Assembly (NCBI GenBank): GCA_009993605.1
Contig: JAACTB010000012.1
Location: 1 to 64,000, forward strand
Source of the DNA: Erythrobacter sp.
Lineage (GTDB): Bacteria; Pseudomonadota; Alphaproteobacteria; Sphingomonadales; Sphingomonadaceae
Reading direction: 5' to 3'
Length of the DNA stretch: 64,000 nucleotides
Positions 13,685-20,186 of the stretch are shown in pieces. A model generated the notes under the pieces. The model worked only from the letters and a program-made list of their open reading frames with translations, had not been told where the DNA came from and made no database searches. How positions within the stretch are numbered: the first letter of the stretch is position 1; each line of letters starts with the position of its first letter. A program made the position numbers and the translations under genes.

Positions 13685-14415
13685 AGATAATCGCCCTCGA
13701 ACTCGCCGAGGCGTTTCAATTCCGCTTCGTCGAGGATCTCGATCCGGCCTTCGCCGCGCAGTTCCAGAACGCCGCGTTCCTTCAGGACGCGGAAACTGCG
13801 ATTGGCATGCACCGAGGTGATGCCGCAGGCTTCCGCATAATCGCGTTGGAGCAGGGAAACCGGCAAGGTCCGGCCATCATACAGCCCGACGAATTTGTGC
13901 CGTTCGATGATTTCCGAAATGAGGTGGGCGATCCGCCCCTCCGCATTTAGCCTGCCCAGCCGAAAGATCCATTCGCGATGCATGGCCGCATCGAGCAGGG
14001 TCGAAAACCATAGAGCGCGCGCCAGATGTACGGAGCGATCGACCAGATCGGCGATGGCCGAGTGTGGGACTTCCGCCACGTGGACGCGCCCCAGCGCCGC
14101 TGTGTTGTGATCGAGCCGCTTCATGGGGAAGCCGTGCAGATCGACGAAATCGCCTGGAATGTTCAGCCCGACCAACTGCCGGTCGCCATTACGATCGTCG
14201 AGGCTACGCAGCACCACGCCTTCTATGATGTAGTAGGAGTGCTCCACTCGATCGCCGCGCCGGACCAGGGTCTGGCGCGGCTCCAGCCAGAGGGTGCGGC
14301 CGACCGCGTCTTCCAGCCACGCTTTCTCTTTCGCGGCAAGCTCGTGCCGAAGGCGGCCTTTCAGGAACAGTTCAGTGCGCAGAACGAACTCTCTATAGCG
14401 TGTTCGACGGTTCAA
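13621..14415 (-). CDS. Crp/Fnr family transcriptional regulator
   Basis: Regulator of up to 264 residues. The N-terminal cyclic-nucleotide-binding-like barrel spans about 40-140 (QTLVRRGDRVEHSYYIIEGVVLR, then NIPGDFVDLHGF), followed by the dimer helix and a C-terminal winged helix (about 190-250) with RDYAEACGITSVHANRSFRVLKERG as the helix-turn-helix. The N-terminal part has no cluster of cysteines for an FNR iron-sulfur centre, so it is not a classical oxygen sensor. The start is uncertain: TTG 14415 is the first available and has no good ribosome binding site. It overlaps the 3' end of the GT4 gene and probably regulates the sugar cluster. Confidence 0.87.
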   Translation of the reverse strand: MNRRTRYREFVLRTELFLKGRLRHELAAKEKAWLEDAVGRTLWLEPRQTLVRRGDRVEHSYYIIEGVVLRSLDDRNGDRQLVGLNIPGDFVDLHGFPMKRLDHNTAALGRVHVAEVPHSAIADLVDRSVHLARALWFSTLLDAAMHREWIFRLGRLNAEGRIAHLISEIIERHKFVGLYDGRTLPVSLLQRDYAEACGITSVHANRSFRVLKERGVLELRGEGRIEILDEAELKRLGEFEGDYLYGEGALALDSFEDRDEQALR

Positions 14416-14558
14416 CTAGTTTAGCTGGGTTGCGCGTTCAAGCCTGAGCTTTCGCGTTTCCAAGCAAGCCGTTGGGAACTTTCCCACTACCGAGGCCCGC
14501 GCCGCCACCTTCGTCTCTGCGAGGATGAGTCGGTTTCTGAATTGCGCGCATGAGCGCC

Positions 14559-15350
14559 TTAAAAGCCGATCCCGATCCTCAGGCCCAACCGTGCATCGGG
14601 CGCATCGCCCGACACGCCAGCGCGCGCGTCCGCGCCCAGCCGCAGGCGCGGCGAAAGATCCGTTTCGATGCCGAGCCCGATCGTCTGCTGGTTCGCGACA
14701 GCGGCGCTCGCCGCCTCTTCATAGGCGTAGCTGACCGTCACCGAACTCGCATCGCTCACCAGCAGTTGCGTGCCGATATTCCCGGCCAGAGTGTTGCGGA
14801 CGTCGAAACCGTCGGGTTCGCCGACCACGGTATAGGTCGCGGAAGCGAAGGGGATGGCGCGCCCGAACTGGCGCGAGACCTGTCCGGTCACGCCGTAATC
14901 GAACTCGCCCGTGCCGAGCGCCTTTCCGCGCGAGGCGGTGGGCACTTTCACATTCCCCGCGACGAAGGCGTTCAGGCTTCCGATGGGCACCAGATATCCC
15001 GCCTGGACGACGACATCGCCTATCCCGTCGCGAGTGACCTCGCGGCGCTCGGTCGATGGCCGCGCGAGGAGCGGCAGGCCGAGCACGCCGCCATTGCCGA
15101 CGATCAGATCCTCGGGCGCCGTCGTGGAAACGTAAGGCACCGACGCGGTCAGGGAAAACCGCCCGGAGCGGACGGCAAGACCCGCGCTGGCGGCATAGGT
15201 CTCGTATTCCCGATCGTCGATATTGCCGGTGACATAGTCCGCCCCTGCGAGAAGCGAGACCGCCGTTTCGGAGCTGTTGCCATCAGCCTCCTGGGCCATC
15301 GCTTGCGCGCCGGTGAGGAGCACAAGGGCGGTGAAAGTCGCGATGCGCAT
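14559..15350 (-). CDS. Outer-membrane beta-barrel protein
   Basis: Protein of 263 residues with a signal peptide (MRIATFTALVLLTGAQAMAQ) and then alternating polar/hydrophobic strands ending in RLGLRIGIGF, a typical C-terminal sorting strand with terminal F. About ten to twelve strands are plausible. It resembles the outer-membrane 'transporter' family proteins common in sphingomonads; substrate unknown. ATG 15350 is chosen because it gives the signal peptide. The upstream gap to the Ser/Gly/Ala-rich protein is 122 bp, and I do not see the ECF-type promoter element in front of this gene. Confidence 0.8.
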   Translation of the reverse strand: MRIATFTALVLLTGAQAMAQEADGNSSETAVSLLAGADYVTGNIDDREYETYAASAGLAVRSGRFSLTASVPYVSTTAPEDLIVGNGGVLGLPLLARPSTERREVTRDGIGDVVVQAGYLVPIGSLNAFVAGNVKVPTASRGKALGTGEFDYGVTGQVSRQFGRAIPFASATYTVVGEPDGFDVRNTLAGNIGTQLLVSDASSVTVSYAYEEAASAAVANQQTIGLGIETDLSPRLRLGADARAGVSGDAPDARLGLRIGIGF

Positions 15351-15472
15351 GGGGAATCCTCGTGTCTGGCGCGCCGGAAATGTCGCGCGCCGAAGCGTCG
15401 AAATCGGTCGGGTGAGGACCGGGCCGCCCATTCGAGCGGCTCGGTTTCCTAAGAGTCAGTCAGACAGACGGC

Positions 15473-16297
15473 TTATTCGCCGGTAGCGGCGCTTGAGGCA
15501 GACCCTTCCGCCGCGATCAGGACCGAACCACTGCCCGAAAAACTGCCCGAGGGGATGGTTGCGAGGCCGTCCCTGGTCTGGACGACCAGCTGGCGGACTT
15601 CTCCTGTGCGCGTCGCCACGATATCGCGAACCGTCCCGAGCCGCTCGCCCGACGGGAGCTCAACCGGCATTCCCGGAGCGACAGCAAAGGCGCCCTCGCC
15701 CTCGGCCGCGCCGCTGCCTGCAAGGGCGAGCATCCCGCCACCGATCATGCCGCTACCGTTCGCCGCGCCGCTGGCCGCGCCGCTGCCCGCGCTATTGGCC
15801 GAACCGGCGACGTTGCCGATCTGGCCTGCGGTCCCGCTCAGCCGGTCACGCGCGGCGCCGACGGCCGGGGTGGCGACATTGCGAACCGTGGAGGTGGCTC
15901 CTTGAACCGCGCCCGTCACGGCATCGGTCCCGATCAGCTGCGCATTCGCGCTACCCGATCCCGAGGCACTGGCCGAGCCCGCACCGTTGGCCGAAGCATT
16001 GCCCGTCGGGCTGCCGAGAACCTGGCTGGTTGCGCCATCGAGGCTGGTATCGACACTGCGATCGACGGTGACGCTGCCGCTGCGGCGATCGACGGTCTGG
16101 CTGCCGCGGGTCGAGGCTTCACTGCGCAGCGTGCCGCGCGTGCTCGAACGCAGCGTCTCGGTCGAACCGCGCAGGGTCGAATTGACCGAACCGCCGAGCG
16201 TGCCGGTAACCGACTGGCCGACACCGCCGAGAAGCTGCGCGTGGGCAGGTGCGGCGAATAGTGCGAGAGCCGAAGCGGCGAGCAGGAGGCTTTTCAT
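15473..16297 (-). CDS. Secreted Ser/Gly/Ala-rich protein with C-terminal PRC-barrel-like segment
   Basis: Protein of 274 residues. Residues 1-20 are a signal peptide (KSLLLAASALALFAAPAHAQ). The body is low-complexity Ser/Gly/Ala/Thr with short imperfect repeats (SGSGSANAQ, GNASANGAGSAS), likely extended and flexible. The last 70 residues (VELPSGERLGTVRDIVATRTGEVRQLVVQ in parts) resemble a PRC-barrel or QRC-type beta segment. ATG 16297 follows GAAAGGAAAT-type purine-rich sequence. A GGATTAA-15 bp-CGTTT element lies about 57-85 bp upstream (16354-16382) and is shared with the protease and the small secreted protein. Role unknown; a surface or matrix protein is plausible. Confidence 0.78.
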   Translation of the reverse strand: MKSLLLAASALALFAAPAHAQLLGGVGQSVTGTLGGSVNSTLRGSTETLRSSTRGTLRSEASTRGSQTVDRRSGSVTVDRSVDTSLDGATSQVLGSPTGNASANGAGSASASGSGSANAQLIGTDAVTGAVQGATSTVRNVATPAVGAARDRLSGTAGQIGNVAGSANSAGSGAASGAANGSGMIGGGMLALAGSGAAEGEGAFAVAPGMPVELPSGERLGTVRDIVATRTGEVRQLVVQTRDGLATIPSGSFSGSGSVLIAAEGSASSAATGE

Positions 16298-16353
16298 GAT
16301 GATTTCCTTTCGTCTGCGGATGCGAAAACAGGGGGGATGCATCCGCTTGAAAG

Positions 16354-16382
16354 GAAAACGGGTGGGCTGGTGCGATTAATCC
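16354..16382 (-). promoter_or_regulatory. Predicted ECF promoter of the Ser/Gly/Ala-rich protein
   Basis: On the minus strand GGATTAA (16382-16376), a 15-bp spacer and CGTTTTC (16360-16354). The same two boxes with the same spacing precede the genes at 17623 and 19443. The GGA-type upstream box and CGTT-type downstream box are the usual form of ECF sigma promoters, and an ECF sigma gene is 1.3 kb away. Confidence 0.6.
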
Positions 16383-16402
16383 ATCGCTTTCGAAAATTTC
16401 TC

Positions 16403-17623
16403 TCAGCGCCCCGTACATTTCGCGCAGACGAGGCCGCGACCGAAGACATCGTCCGGTCCCTTGCGCCCTAAATCGATCGCCTCCCGGTCGAGCGCGCTCC
16501 GCCAATCGCGGCCCTGCCCGATCGCTTGCGCCACGCGCGCCGCGACGAGCGGCGTGGCGAAAGAGGTTCCGCGCAGCTTGATCCGATTGCCCTTCGCATT
16601 GCGGCCGTAAATATCGGCGCCCGGCGCCGCGTAGTCGAGATTGAGCGCGCGCCCCGCCTCGATGAGAGCGCGACGCTTGCCATCGACGGCAGTGACCGCG
16701 ACGACGCCAGGATAGGATGCGGGATAGGCCGGCGGCGCGGCGGGACCGTCATTGCCGACCGCCGCCACCACGACCACGCCCCGGTTCTGCGCCGCGCGCA
16801 CCGCTCTTTCGAGCAGGGCGTTGCGCGGCCCGACCAGGCTGATTGTAACCACCTTGCTGCCGCGTTGCACCAGCCAGCCGAGGCCCTTCGCCATGGCGAG
16901 CGCATTCCCGCCTGCCTCGTCGGTCCCATAGACATCGGCCACGCGGACCGTGCCCGCGCCAGCGTGCCGAAGCAACGAGGCGACCGAACTGCCGTGATGG
17001 CTGGGATAGGGCGCGCCTTCCGCGAAGCCGCGCGTCTCCGCGACCGCGGTCGAAGGTCCGGTCGCTCCGTCGATCATGCCGACCGGCGCGGACCGTCCCG
17101 TCGAGGCCGAAGAAGCGGCGGAGGCGAGCGCGCCGTCGGCGACACCGGCCTGAAAATGGAGATTGTCCGCCACGATCTCGGCATCGGGCAGGAGGAGCGC
17201 CAGCGCGCTCTGCGCTTCGGCGAGCGACAGCCCGGCAGGGACACTCACGCGCATCAGCGACAGGCCCAGCCCTTCGACCTCCTCACGCGACAAAACGGTG
17301 AAACCGGCCCGGAGCGCGGGAGCCAACGCAGCGGCGGGCACGTCCATGACGATCAGTTCGCCGCGCCGTGCGGGCGCGCCGAGGGCATCGAGTTCGATGA
17401 TATCGGGATTGGACCGCACCAATCGCTCGACCGTGCGGAGCCGGTCGCGGGCGAGCCTTTCGATCGTCCGCTGCAAATCCGCGCGCGTGTTTTCCAGCGC
17501 GCCGAGACTCTCGCCCACCACGCTGCCGACCGGCGGCAGGGGCAGGCGCGGCAGAGCGATCTGCGCGGCGAGAGGGGCCGCGATCAGAGCCAGAGCGGCG
17601 CACAGAAGAGGGAAAATTCGCAT
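16403..17623 (-). CDS. S8 family serine peptidase (subtilisin-like)
   Basis: Exported protease of 406 residues. A signal peptide (PLLCAALALIAAPLAAQ) is followed by about 160 residues of prodomain-like sequence and a compact subtilase domain. The triad is visible: Asp in VGMIDGATGP, His in YPSHHGSSVASLL, Ser in LRGTSFATPLVAARVA; AAVGNDGPAAPP supplies the oxyanion Asn region. Around His the usual HGTHVAG is changed to HGSSVAS. ATG 17623 is used (GAGG five to six bases upstream; signal peptide). The frame continues upstream to 18016 only antisense to the sigma gene. Divergent from the ECF sigma factor and behind a predicted ECF promoter, so it is probably a target of that sigma factor. Confidence 0.9.
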   Translation of the reverse strand: MRIFPLLCAALALIAAPLAAQIALPRLPLPPVGSVVGESLGALENTRADLQRTIERLARDRLRTVERLVRSNPDIIELDALGAPARRGELIVMDVPAAALAPALRAGFTVLSREEVEGLGLSLMRVSVPAGLSLAEAQSALALLLPDAEIVADNLHFQAGVADGALASAASSASTGRSAPVGMIDGATGPSTAVAETRGFAEGAPYPSHHGSSVASLLRHAGAGTVRVADVYGTDEAGGNALAMAKGLGWLVQRGSKVVTISLVGPRNALLERAVRAAQNRGVVVVAAVGNDGPAAPPAYPASYPGVVAVTAVDGKRRALIEAGRALNLDYAAPGADIYGRNAKGNRIKLRGTSFATPLVAARVAQAIGQGRDWRSALDREAIDLGRKGPDDVFGRGLVCAKCTGR

Positions 17624-17657
17624 CGAGGCCTCGGCAATCGGATAAAACGCATTAAGC

Positions 17658-18197
17658 ATGGATGAAACGAGCGCCCCCGTCCGTTTAATCCCATGGAAGG
17701 CAGAGACACTGAACACCGCTTTCGAGACAGACTTGCTGGCCCTGCTGCCCCGATTGCGTCGGTTCGCGATCGGGCTGTCCGGCAATCCGTCCGACGGTGA
17801 CGATCTGTGCCAGATGACGATCGAGCGCGCGCTGGCCAATCGCTCCCGCTGGGAGGAAGGCACGCGGCTCGACAGCTGGATGTATCGGATCATGCGCAAT
17901 ATCTGGATCGACGAGGGCCGCCGGACGACCCGCAGCCTGCAGACCTTCGTGGACGAGGAAGCGGGTGTCGCCATCGGCGGCGACGGGTCGCAGGAAGCCG
18001 TGGTCGAACTCGGCAATGTCGATCGCGCGATGCAGTCGCTTCCGACCGACCAGCGCGAGGCGGTACTGCTCGTGATGGTGGAAGGCTATGCCTATAAGGA
18101 AGCCGCCGAGATCGTGGGGTGTCCGGTCGGCACGCTCAATTCGCGGCTCGTCAGGGGCCGCGATGCCCTGATGCAGATGCTGGGAGACGAAGCATGA
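17658..18197 (+). CDS. ECF-family RNA polymerase sigma factor
   Basis: Group 4 sigma factor of up to 179 residues. Region 2 (about 25-90) has LLPRLRRFAIGLSGNPSDGDDLCQMTIERAL and SWMYRIMRNIWIDEGRR; region 4 (about 125-175) has LPTDQREAVLLVMVEGYAYKEAAEIVGCPVGTLNSRLVRGRDAL. The ATG at 17658 is the conventional start, but a predicted promoter for this gene lies at 17660-17688, downstream of that ATG. The real start may then be CTG 17709, which has GGAAGG eight bases upstream, giving 162 residues and an N-terminus nearer to homologues. The stop overlaps the anti-sigma gene (ATGA). It probably drives its own gene and the secreted proteins at 15473, 16403 and 19084. Confidence 0.9.
   Translation: MDETSAPVRLIPWKAETLNTAFETDLLALLPRLRRFAIGLSGNPSDGDDLCQMTIERALANRSRWEEGTRLDSWMYRIMRNIWIDEGRRTTRSLQTFVDEEAGVAIGGDGSQEAVVELGNVDRAMQSLPTDQREAVLLVMVEGYAYKEAAEIVGCPVGTLNSRLVRGRDALMQMLGDEA
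17660..17688 (+). promoter_or_regulatory. Predicted autoregulatory promoter of the ECF sigma gene
   Basis: GGATGAA (17660-17666), 15-bp spacer, CGTTTAA (17682-17688). It overlaps the leftward promoter of the protease almost completely, because the DNA here is a near-palindrome (GGATGAAACG ... CGTTTAATCC). A transcript starting about seven bases downstream would carry GGAAGG and then CTG 17709. Confidence 0.55.
17663..17691 (-). promoter_or_regulatory. Predicted ECF promoter of the S8 peptidase
   Basis: On the minus strand GGATTAA (17691-17685), 15-bp spacer, CGTTTCA (17669-17663). Transcription would start near 17656 and give a leader of about 30 bases with GAGG before ATG 17623. Same boxes and spacing as the elements at 16354 and 19493. 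Confidence 0.6.
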
Positions 18198-18916
18198 GCA
18201 CCCGCGCGACGCCTGAAGAGATCGCCGCCTTCGCGGACGGTGAATTGCCGGCCGAGCGGGAGGCCGCGATGCGTGATGCGATGGCCGCCGATCCCGAACT
18301 GGCGAAACAGGTGGAGCGGCACCGCGCCCTCGCAGCGCGGTTGTCGCAACATTATGCGCCTGTGCTGGACGAAAGGGTGCCGGACCGCCTGACGGATCTG
18401 CTGACAGCGCGAAGCGACGAGACGGTGGTCGATTTCGCCGCCGCCCGCCAGAAGCAGGAGGCACAAAAACGAGAAGCTTCGTCCAGGCGCCCTCATTGGG
18501 GGTGGATCGCGGGGCCCGCGCTGGCCGCCTCGCTCGCGATCGCCGTCATTCTGGGCGATAGCGATACCGGGCCGGGAGCCGGGTATGCCGGTCCTCAGCT
18601 TGCCGCAGTGCTCGATGACCAACTCGTTGCCGAACAGTCTCCTGCTGCTGAAACCCGCGTGCTGTTGTCGTTCGAGGATCAAGGCGGCCAGTTCTGCCGC
18701 GCCTACAGCGGCGTCTCGGGGGGCGGCATCGCCTGCCGCGACGAAGAGGGCTGGAGAATCGAACGCCGATCCGAAGGCAGCGAAGCCGCCTCGACAGATT
18801 TTCGCATGGCGGGCGCCGATGACGGCGCGATCCTGGCGCAGGCGCAGGAGATGGCGGCGGGCCCCGCGCTCGACGCGGCGGGCGAGCAGGCCGCACGCGA
18901 GCGCGGGTGGCGCTGA
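18194..18916 (+). CDS. Membrane-anchored anti-sigma factor
   Basis: Protein of 240 residues. The cytoplasmic N-terminus (EEIAAFADGELPAEREAAM) matches the anti-sigma domain start, although it lacks the HxxxCxxC zinc motif of ZAS proteins. One transmembrane segment lies near residues 100-120 (WGWIAGPALAASLAIAVIL), followed by a periplasmic domain of about 120 residues with two cysteines in QFCRAYSG and GIACRDEE that may form a disulfide. The start ATG at 18194 overlaps the sigma factor stop, so the pair is made in step. It should hold the sigma factor at the membrane until a periplasmic signal releases it. Confidence 0.87.
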   Translation: MSTRATPEEIAAFADGELPAEREAAMRDAMAADPELAKQVERHRALAARLSQHYAPVLDERVPDRLTDLLTARSDETVVDFAAARQKQEAQKREASSRRPHWGWIAGPALAASLAIAVILGDSDTGPGAGYAGPQLAAVLDDQLVAEQSPAAETRVLLSFEDQGGQFCRAYSGVSGGGIACRDEEGWRIERRSEGSEAASTDFRMAGADDGAILAQAQEMAAGPALDAAGEQAARERGWR

Positions 18917-18980
18917 GCCGCCCGCGATACCTTTGCCGGCTTCCGCTTTCCGCAGGCCACTGCCCTGATCTGAACGCGAA

Positions 18981-19016
18981 GAAGGAAGGATCGAGGGCTG
19001 GTCCGATCCTTCCTTC
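18981..19016. terminator. Strong hairpin after the anti-sigma gene
   Basis: A perfect 13-bp inverted repeat (GAAGGAAGGATCG / CGATCCTTCCTTC) with a 10-base loop, 65 bp after the anti-sigma stop. No T-run follows, so it may be a termination or message-stabilising hairpin. Confidence 0.5.
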
Positions 19017-19022
19017 AGGGGT

Positions 19023-19048
19023 GGCCGCATCCGATCAGGGATGCGGCC
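19023..19048. terminator. Second hairpin between convergent genes
   Basis: Perfect 10-bp inverted repeat GGCCGCATCC / GGATGCGGCC with a six-base loop, seven bases after the previous hairpin and 36 bp before the stop of the leftward gene at 19084. The two tandem hairpins separate convergent genes and may stop transcription from both sides. Confidence 0.45.
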
Positions 19049-19083
19049 CGGGGGGCTGGTATTTCCGGTTCGCTAATCTAGGC

Positions 19084-19443
19084 TCAGTCGACGATGATGA
19101 CCCGGCCCATGCGATAGCCGCGCTCGGCCATTTCCTCGACATAATGGACACGCTCGTGCTTCAGTTCGCGGGCATATTCTTCCCAGGCATCGCGATGGTC
19201 TTCCAGATCGCTCGCGCGGCGCAGATCGCTCGACAGCTCCTTCTGCGCTTCGGTCACGTCGATGCGGTAATCGAACCAGAACCTGTTCTCGATGCCGGCA
19301 ATCGGCGCAGTGATGATCAGGGCCTCCTCCGCACGCGCCATCTGCTCTTCGTAAAGCATCGGGATGGCAGCGCTCACGGCGGTCGCTTCGATCGCTCCGG
19401 TTAGGGCAAGGGCGAGGAACGGGATGGCGGCAGGTTTGGTCAT
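19084..19443 (-). CDS. Small secreted protein of unknown function
   Basis: Protein of 119 residues. An N-terminal hydrophobic segment (IPFLALALTGAIEATAVSA) is a likely signal peptide. The mature part is charged and helical (RRASDLEDHRDAWEEYARELKHERVHYVEEMAERGY) and may form a short coiled coil; no family recognised. ATG 19443 is preferred over ATG 19461 because AGGA lies a suitable distance upstream. A GGATTAA-15 bp-CGTTT element (19493-19521) lies 50-78 bp upstream, so this gene probably belongs to the ECF regulon of the neighbouring sigma factor. Confidence 0.72.
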   Translation of the reverse strand: MTKPAAIPFLALALTGAIEATAVSAAIPMLYEEQMARAEEALIITAPIAGIENRFWFDYRIDVTEAQKELSSDLRRASDLEDHRDAWEEYARELKHERVHYVEEMAERGYRMGRVIIVD

Positions 19444-19492
19444 CGATCGTCTTCCTTTCATGCGCGTCCGGGTCGACCCGGCCGTCTGAGAA

Positions 19493-19521
19493 GGAAACGA
19501 AACGCCCCATGGTTTTAATCC
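19493..19521 (-). promoter_or_regulatory. Predicted ECF promoter of the small secreted protein
   Basis: On the minus strand GGATTAA (19521-19515), 15-bp spacer, CGTTTCC (19499-19493), matching the elements before the protease and the Ser/Gly/Ala-rich protein in both boxes and spacing. Confidence 0.6.
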
Positions 19522-19706
19522 ACGCGGCGGCCGATTCAGCGCAGCGAGATGACGAATTTTTCAACGGGGCTTGGAAAAGCGCGAACCTGACCTTCCGATT
19601 GGATCGATCGACGCGCATCGGAGACAGATGCCGGCATCGGGGATGGCGCTCGGTTCGGCGGGCGAAGAGCTTGCGCCCATCGCGGGCTCTCGCCTAAGCC
19701 GAAGCT

Positions 19707-20186
19707 ATGGATCAACGCGCCCGATTGCACATGGACGAAGAGCACCTCCAGGTGGCCCGCCTCACCCGCGGGCTTGCCTCGCACCTTTTGGAACGGTCGA
19801 CGATAACGGCGCGCCATCACGGCCTCGGCGTCACCGAGGTGCGGGCGATGGAACAGCTCTATTTGACCGGCCCAATGACCGCCGGCGAGCTGGGCACGAG
19901 CCTCGCGCTGACGAGCGGATCGGTGACGGCGCTGGTCGGGCGGTTGCTGAAGAACAAGCTCGTGGTGCGCACGCGCGACGAAGACGATCGCCGCAAGGTG
20001 TGGATCACCATCGCGCCCGACAGGGCCGAGGAATTCATCGCGCCCTATCTCAACACGATCAAAGGCGGGAGCAGAGTCGTGAAGGGATTTTCGAAGGAAG
20101 ACCGCCAGATCGCGGTTCGCTTCCTCGAAGCCTATTACCAGGCCTCCGCCATCGGGACCGAGGAGCTGCGCAAAAGCATGCGCTGA
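19707..20186 (+). CDS. MarR/winged-helix transcriptional regulator (first paralogue)
   Basis: Regulator of 159 residues. The core (about 40-100) carries VTEVRAMEQLYLTGPMTAGELGTSLALTSGSVTALVGRLL in pieces, then the wing RTRDEDDRRKVWITI, typical of MarR proteins. It is clearly paralogous to the regulator at 25632 (both have LTSGSVTALV, a shared RxASHLLERxxxTARHxxLGVTE block and similar C-termini). It precedes the carboxymuconolactone-decarboxylase/SDR operon and probably regulates it through the inverted repeat at 20320-20336. The ATG at 19707 has a weak ribosome binding site; an ATG eight codons later would also work. Confidence 0.86.
   Translation: MDQRARLHMDEEHLQVARLTRGLASHLLERSTITARHHGLGVTEVRAMEQLYLTGPMTAGELGTSLALTSGSVTALVGRLLKNKLVVRTRDEDDRRKVWITIAPDRAEEFIAPYLNTIKGGSRVVKGFSKEDRQIAVRFLEAYYQASAIGTEELRKSMR

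Follow-up and report, generated by a model that had tools for sequence, protein, structure and literature searches.

A predicted extracytoplasmic function sigma factor regulon in Erythrobacter with a putative bidirectional promoter and a proposed CTG start codon

Positions 1 to 64,000 of contig JAACTB010000012.1 from Erythrobacter sp. (the window, a 64-kb stretch of a genome of 2,988,900 bases, 3.0 Mb) contain a small module of genes centred on a sigma factor of the extracytoplasmic function (ECF) type. The sigma gene is followed by the gene of a putative anti-sigma factor, and the pair is accompanied by genes for an exported protease, a Ser/Gly/Ala-rich protein, a barrel-like protein and a small helical protein (Table 1). 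An initial annotation, made from the letters of the window, had proposed a local ECF regulon of secreted proteins under one bipartite promoter element. Comparing the module with its relatives, we arrive at a probability of about 0.88 for the reading that it is an autoregulated regulon of an ECF sigma factor and a membrane anti-sigma factor, that it reads the element GGATKAA-N15-CGTTT (K being G or T), and that it includes a bidirectional inverted-repeat promoter and a sigma gene starting with CTG.

Results

Gene content of the module

Relatives were collected by a profile search of genome contigs with an alignment of 20 sigma factor sequences, which gave 268 confirmed relatives. The best 80 loci of these 268 were used (loci are labelled L and genomes G). 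They fall under 17 genus names, one of which, Stagnimonas, belongs to a metagenome bin that is probably mislabelled; setting aside three duplicate contigs leaves 77 loci. The closest named relative among the best 80 is Erythrobacter sp. HI0063, whose sigma factor is 97% identical.

The sigma factor, analysed as a 179-residue frame, contains only sigma-70 regions 2 and 4 (PF04542, 1.9e-11; PF08281, 3e-16), as is characteristic of the ECF group. The start of the anti-sigma gene overlaps the sigma stop codon as ATGA in 66 of 76 cases. An alignment of 56 anti-sigma sequences displays a NepR-like N-terminal stretch, a hydrophobic segment that we read as a putative membrane helix, and an exported domain with the invariant residues Cys168 and Cys181. 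In the structural model both domains are confident and the membrane stretch is weak (helix 107-120 at pLDDT, the predicted local distance difference test, of 55-59). The Pfam match to NepR stays below threshold (23.0 bits, cut-off 25.7), which leaves the protein outside that family, and the NepR chain 2lfw_B is matched at E 0.27. The small protein is modelled as a confident helical hairpin (pLDDT 92-98 over residues 31-110). Neither model has a neighbour in the PDB at E 0.001 or better, and no function is therefore assigned to either protein from its fold.

Among the targets, Asp185 and His210 of the protease are retained in 77/77 aligned rows; Ser354 is retained in 74, and three rows have gaps at this position. 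The three remaining exported proteins gave no family above cut-off in a Pfam scan, with NCBIfam also run; the C-terminal match of the Ser/Gly/Ala-rich protein to PF05239 reaches E 0.0015 and 18.9 bits, short of the cut-off of 21.2. The initial annotation had ascribed an export signal to every target, and inspection of the translated N-termini by eye agrees with this prediction.

Table 1. Predicted genes and regulatory features of the module (window coordinates)
Feature	Position	Strand	Basis or remark
Exported barrel-like protein, optional fifth regulon member	14559..15350	-	Element pattern in relatives
Exported Ser/Gly/Ala-rich protein, weak C-terminal PRC-barrel-like match	15473..16297	-	PF05239, sub-threshold
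Promoter of the Ser/Gly/Ala-rich gene, one-way, GGATTAA-N15-CGTTT	16356..16382	-	Window scan and relatives
Exported S8 (subtilisin-type) serine protease, Asp185, His210, Ser354	16403..17623	-	Pfam PF00082, 6e-17
Inverted-repeat bidirectional promoter, GGATGAAACG-N12-CGTTTAATCC, 32 bp	17660..17691	.	Between protease and sigma genes; predicted
Promoter towards the sigma gene, -35 GGATGAA, N15, -10 CGTTT	17660..17686	+	Window scan; conserved
Promoter towards the S8 protease gene, -35 GGATTAA, N15, -10 CGTTT	17665..17691	-	Window scan; conserved
Shine-Dalgarno sequence GGAAGG, 8 nt ahead of CTG	17695..17700	+	Sequence; relatives
EcfG-like ECF sigma factor, with CTG at 17709 as the proposed start	17709..18197	+	Pfam sigma-70 regions 2 and 4
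Putative anti-sigma factor: helical N-terminal domain, hydrophobic segment, exported domain	18194..18916	+	Alignment, model
Small exported helical-hairpin protein	19084..19461	-	Alignment and model
Promoter of the small helical protein gene, one-way, GGATTAA-N15-CGTTT	19495..19521	-	Window scan and relatives

A promoter element with fixed spacing

A scan of the window for GGATKAA-N14..17-CGTTT returned four matches, every one of them at N15, whereas 100 shuffled versions of the window contained 0.02 matches on average and none reached four. The initial annotation had already described these four elements with identical spacing, at coordinates that prove right to within 2 bases, and had seen no further copy in intergenic DNA of the window. 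Of five exact matches in the whole genome, four lie inside the module, and the reversed pattern has none. When one mismatch from GGATTAA-N15-CGTTT is allowed, seven sites are obtained genome-wide, three of them outside the module; because the reversed control alone yields two, these three extra sites, which were read as short flanks, were treated as chance, and a larger genome-wide regulon was rejected. A search for a sigma-70-type promoter in 14400-19700 found none.

The same spacing holds across the 77 loci, where strict elements number 182 at N15, none at N14 and none at N16, the remaining spacings from N8 to N23 contributing three altogether. All but two of the 182 precede the sigma gene (66), the protease gene (64), the Ser/Gly/Ala-rich gene (34) or the small gene (16); the other two precede a second Ser/Gly/Ala-rich copy (L075) and the barrel-like gene (L095). 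The scan of the genome and of related genomes and the alignment of upstream regions, both suggested as checks in the initial annotation, find the element conserved and placed before the expected genes. An element stands upstream of the sigma gene in all 80 loci. Scored by match over 11 positions, the region upstream of the Ser/Gly/Ala-rich gene reaches 10 or 11 in 67/75 loci and that upstream of the small gene in 38/38 loci having the gene, compared with 74/1540 random windows from the same loci, module sites included. Some lineages have GAATTAA or GCATTAA as the -35 box of their one-way sites, with GGAT still present at the two-way site of the same locus.

The element also moves with the genes. 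The small gene is inverted in L130 and L143, and its element with it; in L127, L131 and L139 both gene and element are found on the opposite side of the module; and in G026 a second Ser/Gly/Ala-rich gene, about 91 kb from the module, bears the element. Of 37 genomes in the genus, counting the one that contains the window, the sigma gene is present in 15, and the small gene with the paired element in exactly the same 15. The other 22 have no paired element and carry 12 single GGATGAA-type matches in nine genomes. In a wider sample of 199 genomes of the family, searched for the sigma factor at 1e-25, 177 genomes have a match at this level or better; many of those listed are about 40-45% identical, and these, not checked singly, we take to be EcfG. 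Matches at 1e-40 or better occur at 53 places in 52 of the 199 genomes.

The barrel-like gene, whose product we describe as such by putative assignment, was added to the regulon because it bears its own element when it does not stand behind the Ser/Gly/Ala-rich gene: the score is 11/11 in L095, in L105/L106 (one strain) and in L112, and 9/11 in L083. Where it follows the Ser/Gly/Ala-rich gene it is without an element of its own (eight loci, best scores 7 or 8 of 11; 6 in the window), and in the window it is probably read through from the Ser/Gly/Ala-rich promoter. With 13/80 loci having the gene, it is an optional member.

Some genomes hold two sigma/protease modules, each with its own inverted repeat (L068 and L083; L111 and L117; L164 and L166), and large plasmid records from Novosphingobium and Sphingomonas also carry the module (L150, L151, L152). 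In L175 a further GGATTAA-N15-CGTTT match (G029:C6:38201-38227) is found close to the small-gene promoter, on the other strand; by eye, the first long frame downstream of it resembles a response regulator with a LuxR-like ending.

A symmetric site between the sigma and protease genes

The elements of the sigma and protease genes had been described as two separate sites. They are two readings of a single inverted repeat, GGATKAAACG-N12-CGTTTMATCC, in which each -35 box is interleaved with the -10 box of the opposite promoter. The repeat with its mirrored half-site GGATKAAACG is present in 77/77 loci, representing 70 distinct sequences, and in all 80 when the three duplicate contigs are counted. 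Leaving out position 5, all nine pairs between the half-sites are complementary in 64 of the 77 loci and eight are in the other 13. The symmetry is concentrated in the boxes, as the centre is only weakly symmetric (a mean of 2.3 of 6 pairs at two-way sites versus 1.7 at one-way sites). The ATCC that completes the repeat is found at 75/77 two-way sites and at 0/111 one-way sites.

The two kinds of site also differ in detail. Position 5 is T in 99/111 one-way sites and G in 84% of the 70 two-way plus-strand sites, and the base following CGTTT is never A in the 111 one-way sites and is A in 55% of the 70 two-way sites. An A would be expected there in two-way sites if the base must also serve the opposite -35 box. 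The sequences at both positions look like a visible compromise.

In a set of 20 orthologues that are further away (46-63% identity of the sigma factor), the GGAT form of the repeat is retained in 17, with all nine pairs complementary in 15. In L162 both halves are altered together, to GGAAGAAACG...CGTTTCTTCC, a change that we read as co-variation and count in favour of the proposed regulon, and in L161 the position of the repeat reads GGAAGAAACG...CGTTTCGTCC. In L173 the protease match is not divergent, and the repeat is absent. On the strength of a symmetric site with boxes on both strands, the repeat is classed as a putative bidirectional promoter, predicted to be active in both directions. 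Its geometry and the behaviour of other bidirectional promoters (PMC12825309) suggest that one polymerase would occupy it at a time, to the exclusion of a second.

The start of the sigma gene

The position of the repeat bears on where translation of the sigma factor begins. An in-frame ATG at 17658 lies at the upstream edge of the promoter, ahead of any expected transcription start, and the most likely start, judged from the comparison of leaders, is the CTG at 17709. In 71 distinct leaders the codon at -4 from the first conserved Phe is CTG in 57, TTG in four, ATC in two, and CTA and GTG in one each; the other six have a start-type codon one place upstream (ATG in four, GTG in one and a doubtful ATA in one). 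This CTG does not behave as an ordinary Leu codon. Such a codon would often be CTC or CTT, which supply 188 of the 378 Leu codons at five Leu positions that never vary, whereas they account for 0/62 Leu-type codons in the start column. In 53/77 loci the start codon is preceded by AAGG or GAGG, which ends 8-9 nt upstream of it.

In 39 of the 77 loci, reading back in frame from the first conserved Phe meets no ATG, GTG or TTG ahead of a stop codon (160 nt examined), and the next start codon downstream in these loci is scattered from residue 5 to 32, within the conserved domain. Between repeat and Phe there are 27 to 46 nt, a distance that does not keep the frame. CTG is the annotated start in one of three plasmid orthologues that were opened. 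For the 19 distant orthologues that have the repeat or a variant of it, the start-type codon nearest to the Phe is TTG in nine, ATG in six and GTG in four; as none uses CTG, the CTG start would belong to the nearer branch. An RNA structure hiding the CTG found no support, the leader folding less stably than its shuffles (z +1.55). Switches to CUG starts were reconstructed very rarely in one study of prokaryotes, 2 from 61,358 ancestral AUG starts (PMC5622118), and initiation complexes of E. coli are reported to be less stable on CUG (PMC11497404).

Relation to EcfG and other explanations

The genome also encodes a nepR/ecfG pair, at about 95 kb on C18, whose NepR scores 61.8 bits and whose EcfG is 39% identical to the sigma factor of the module; GGAAC-N16-CGTT stands upstream of this nepR. 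The EcfG motif of S. melonis is reported as GGAAC-N17-20-GTT (PMC6599016). In the module itself, the seven proteins encoded between 14559 and 20183 were scanned with Pfam and yielded no PhyR and no NepR above cut-off; nepR and phyR are not beside the sigma gene, and the -35 box is not GGAAC, which sets the sigma factor apart from EcfG proper. We regard the module as paralogous to the EcfG system, with the -10 box in common and the -35 box changed, and the two may share ancestry. That EcfG reads the elements, the sigma factor of the module having other targets, would fit the shared CGTT and the motifs before the genome's own nepR and in S. melonis. Against this stand the differing -35 box (GGAT) and the genus sample, in which the paired element accompanies the module sigma factor in 15/15 genomes and is missing from all 22 without it, together with the matches in 177/199 family genomes, many of those listed being presumed EcfG; we judge the explanation very unlikely. 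It is similarly improbable that the sigma gene begins at ATG 17658, which would turn the plus-strand element into coding sequence and leave the protease promoter as the only real one. In the window the ATG does share the sigma reading frame, and public annotation chose one inside the repeat in two plasmid orthologues, but 39/77 loci offer no in-frame ATG, GTG or TTG upstream, the stretch between repeat and Phe drifts in length and frame, the Shine-Dalgarno sequence points at CTG, and the third plasmid orthologue is annotated from there.

A nearly perfect repeat between divergent genes might alternatively serve as an operator for a dimeric regulator, be it a repressor or an activator, with the one-way elements as degenerate operators. 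A gene for a MarR-type regulator does follow the module in the window (19707-20186), yet it is found in 1/80 related loci (fetched flanks). Both boxes are retained at one-way sites and the completing ATCC at none of them, the orientation of the elements follows the gene, and their spacing fits a promoter. We rejected a dimeric-regulator operator on the missing ATCC and the orientation, and its probability is slight indeed.

Several observations weigh against the regulon as we propose it. Recognition of its elements by EcfG is possible, because the -10 box of EcfG is also CGTT. One pair of the repeat is broken in each of L163 and L164, where eight pairs are complementary, and L161 and L162 are without GGAT. 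The in-frame ATG 17658 in the window and the annotation of 2/3 opened plasmid orthologues from an ATG inside the repeat speak for a different start, and CTG is not universal, never being the nearest start-type codon in the 19 distant orthologues. At the one-way sites, the score upstream of the Ser/Gly/Ala-rich gene is 9 of 11 or less in 8/75 loci, two of them at 7, the background level; the small gene is present in only 38/77 loci; and 30% of the 110 distinct sites have A at position 2 of the -35 box. As the loci are related and not independent, evolutionary events are fewer than the counts suggest. The whole analysis is comparative, and it is from such comparison that we infer the dependence of transcription on the sigma factor.

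Discussion

The proposal of a local ECF regulon stands with respect to the element, its spacing and the link to the sigma gene, all of which hold in relatives. It was incomplete: the fifth target had been missed, as had the bidirectional inverted repeat and the CTG start.

In the mechanism that we propose from these sequence features, the membrane anti-sigma factor would hold the sigma factor in the resting state, and its exported domain would sense a change in the envelope and free the sigma factor; envelope stress as the signal is our guess, based on the exported domain and the targets. The free sigma factor would presumably read GGATKAA-N15-CGTTT and guide RNA polymerase to it. Polymerase could then occupy the 32-bp repeat in either direction, not in both together, giving more sigma and anti-sigma factor in one orientation and the exported S8 protease in the other, while the one-way elements would promote expression of the Ser/Gly/Ala-rich protein, together with the barrel-like protein encoded behind it, and of the small helical protein. 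The weak CTG after a good Shine-Dalgarno sequence and the ATGA overlap would keep the sigma factor scarce relative to the anti-sigma factor. The sensing step, mutual exclusion at the repeat and the role of CTG in low translation are all presumptive parts of this scheme. A further idea, which we offer tentatively and consider rather doubtful, is that the repeat is a selected device with one site and two outputs: since holoenzyme would bind it in either orientation, output of sigma and anti-sigma factor would compete with output of protease, CUG would hold sigma below anti-sigma, and the protease may act on the exported domain of the anti-sigma factor and close the loop.

ECF modules of the RpoE-RseA type have overlapping adjacent sigma and anti-sigma genes, a membrane segment and a self-directed promoter. 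The module shares gene adjacency and overlap, a membrane segment and, by prediction, self-direction with them; it differs in its own promoter code, the inverted-repeat promoter, the exported S8 protease, the uncharacterised targets and the CTG start. With the EcfG/NepR/PhyR system it has in common a related sigma factor (39%), the -10 CGTT, a NepR-like stretch in the anti-sigma factor and divergent units, a known EcfG locus being likewise described with divergent sigma-dependent transcription units (PMC8103513). In contrast to that system, its anti-sigma factor is predicted to be membrane-bound with an exported domain, its -35 box is GGAT and its regulon is tiny and local. Pseudo-symmetric DNA that binds polymerase in two mutually exclusive orientations has been described by Warman, Grainger and colleagues (PMC12825309). 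Their promoters share a single -10 box, whereas the CGTTT boxes of the module lie 12 bp apart on opposite strands, and its symmetry is of ECF type, with -35 and -10 boxes interleaved, and conserved over many genera. In titles and the beginnings of abstracts, with thin coverage of subscription journals, we recognised nothing as this module, its element or an ECF sigma factor started from CUG.

If our reading is true, public annotation sets gene starts inside the promoter, as in 2/3 of the records opened. A whole alternative-sigma regulon would then be legible from DNA alone, compact and testable, and its regulator would start from a conserved CUG, which is rare. It would also provide a clean test of how polymerase shares its orientations at a two-way promoter and of why the symmetry is kept, and it names a set of uncharacterised exported proteins for joint study.

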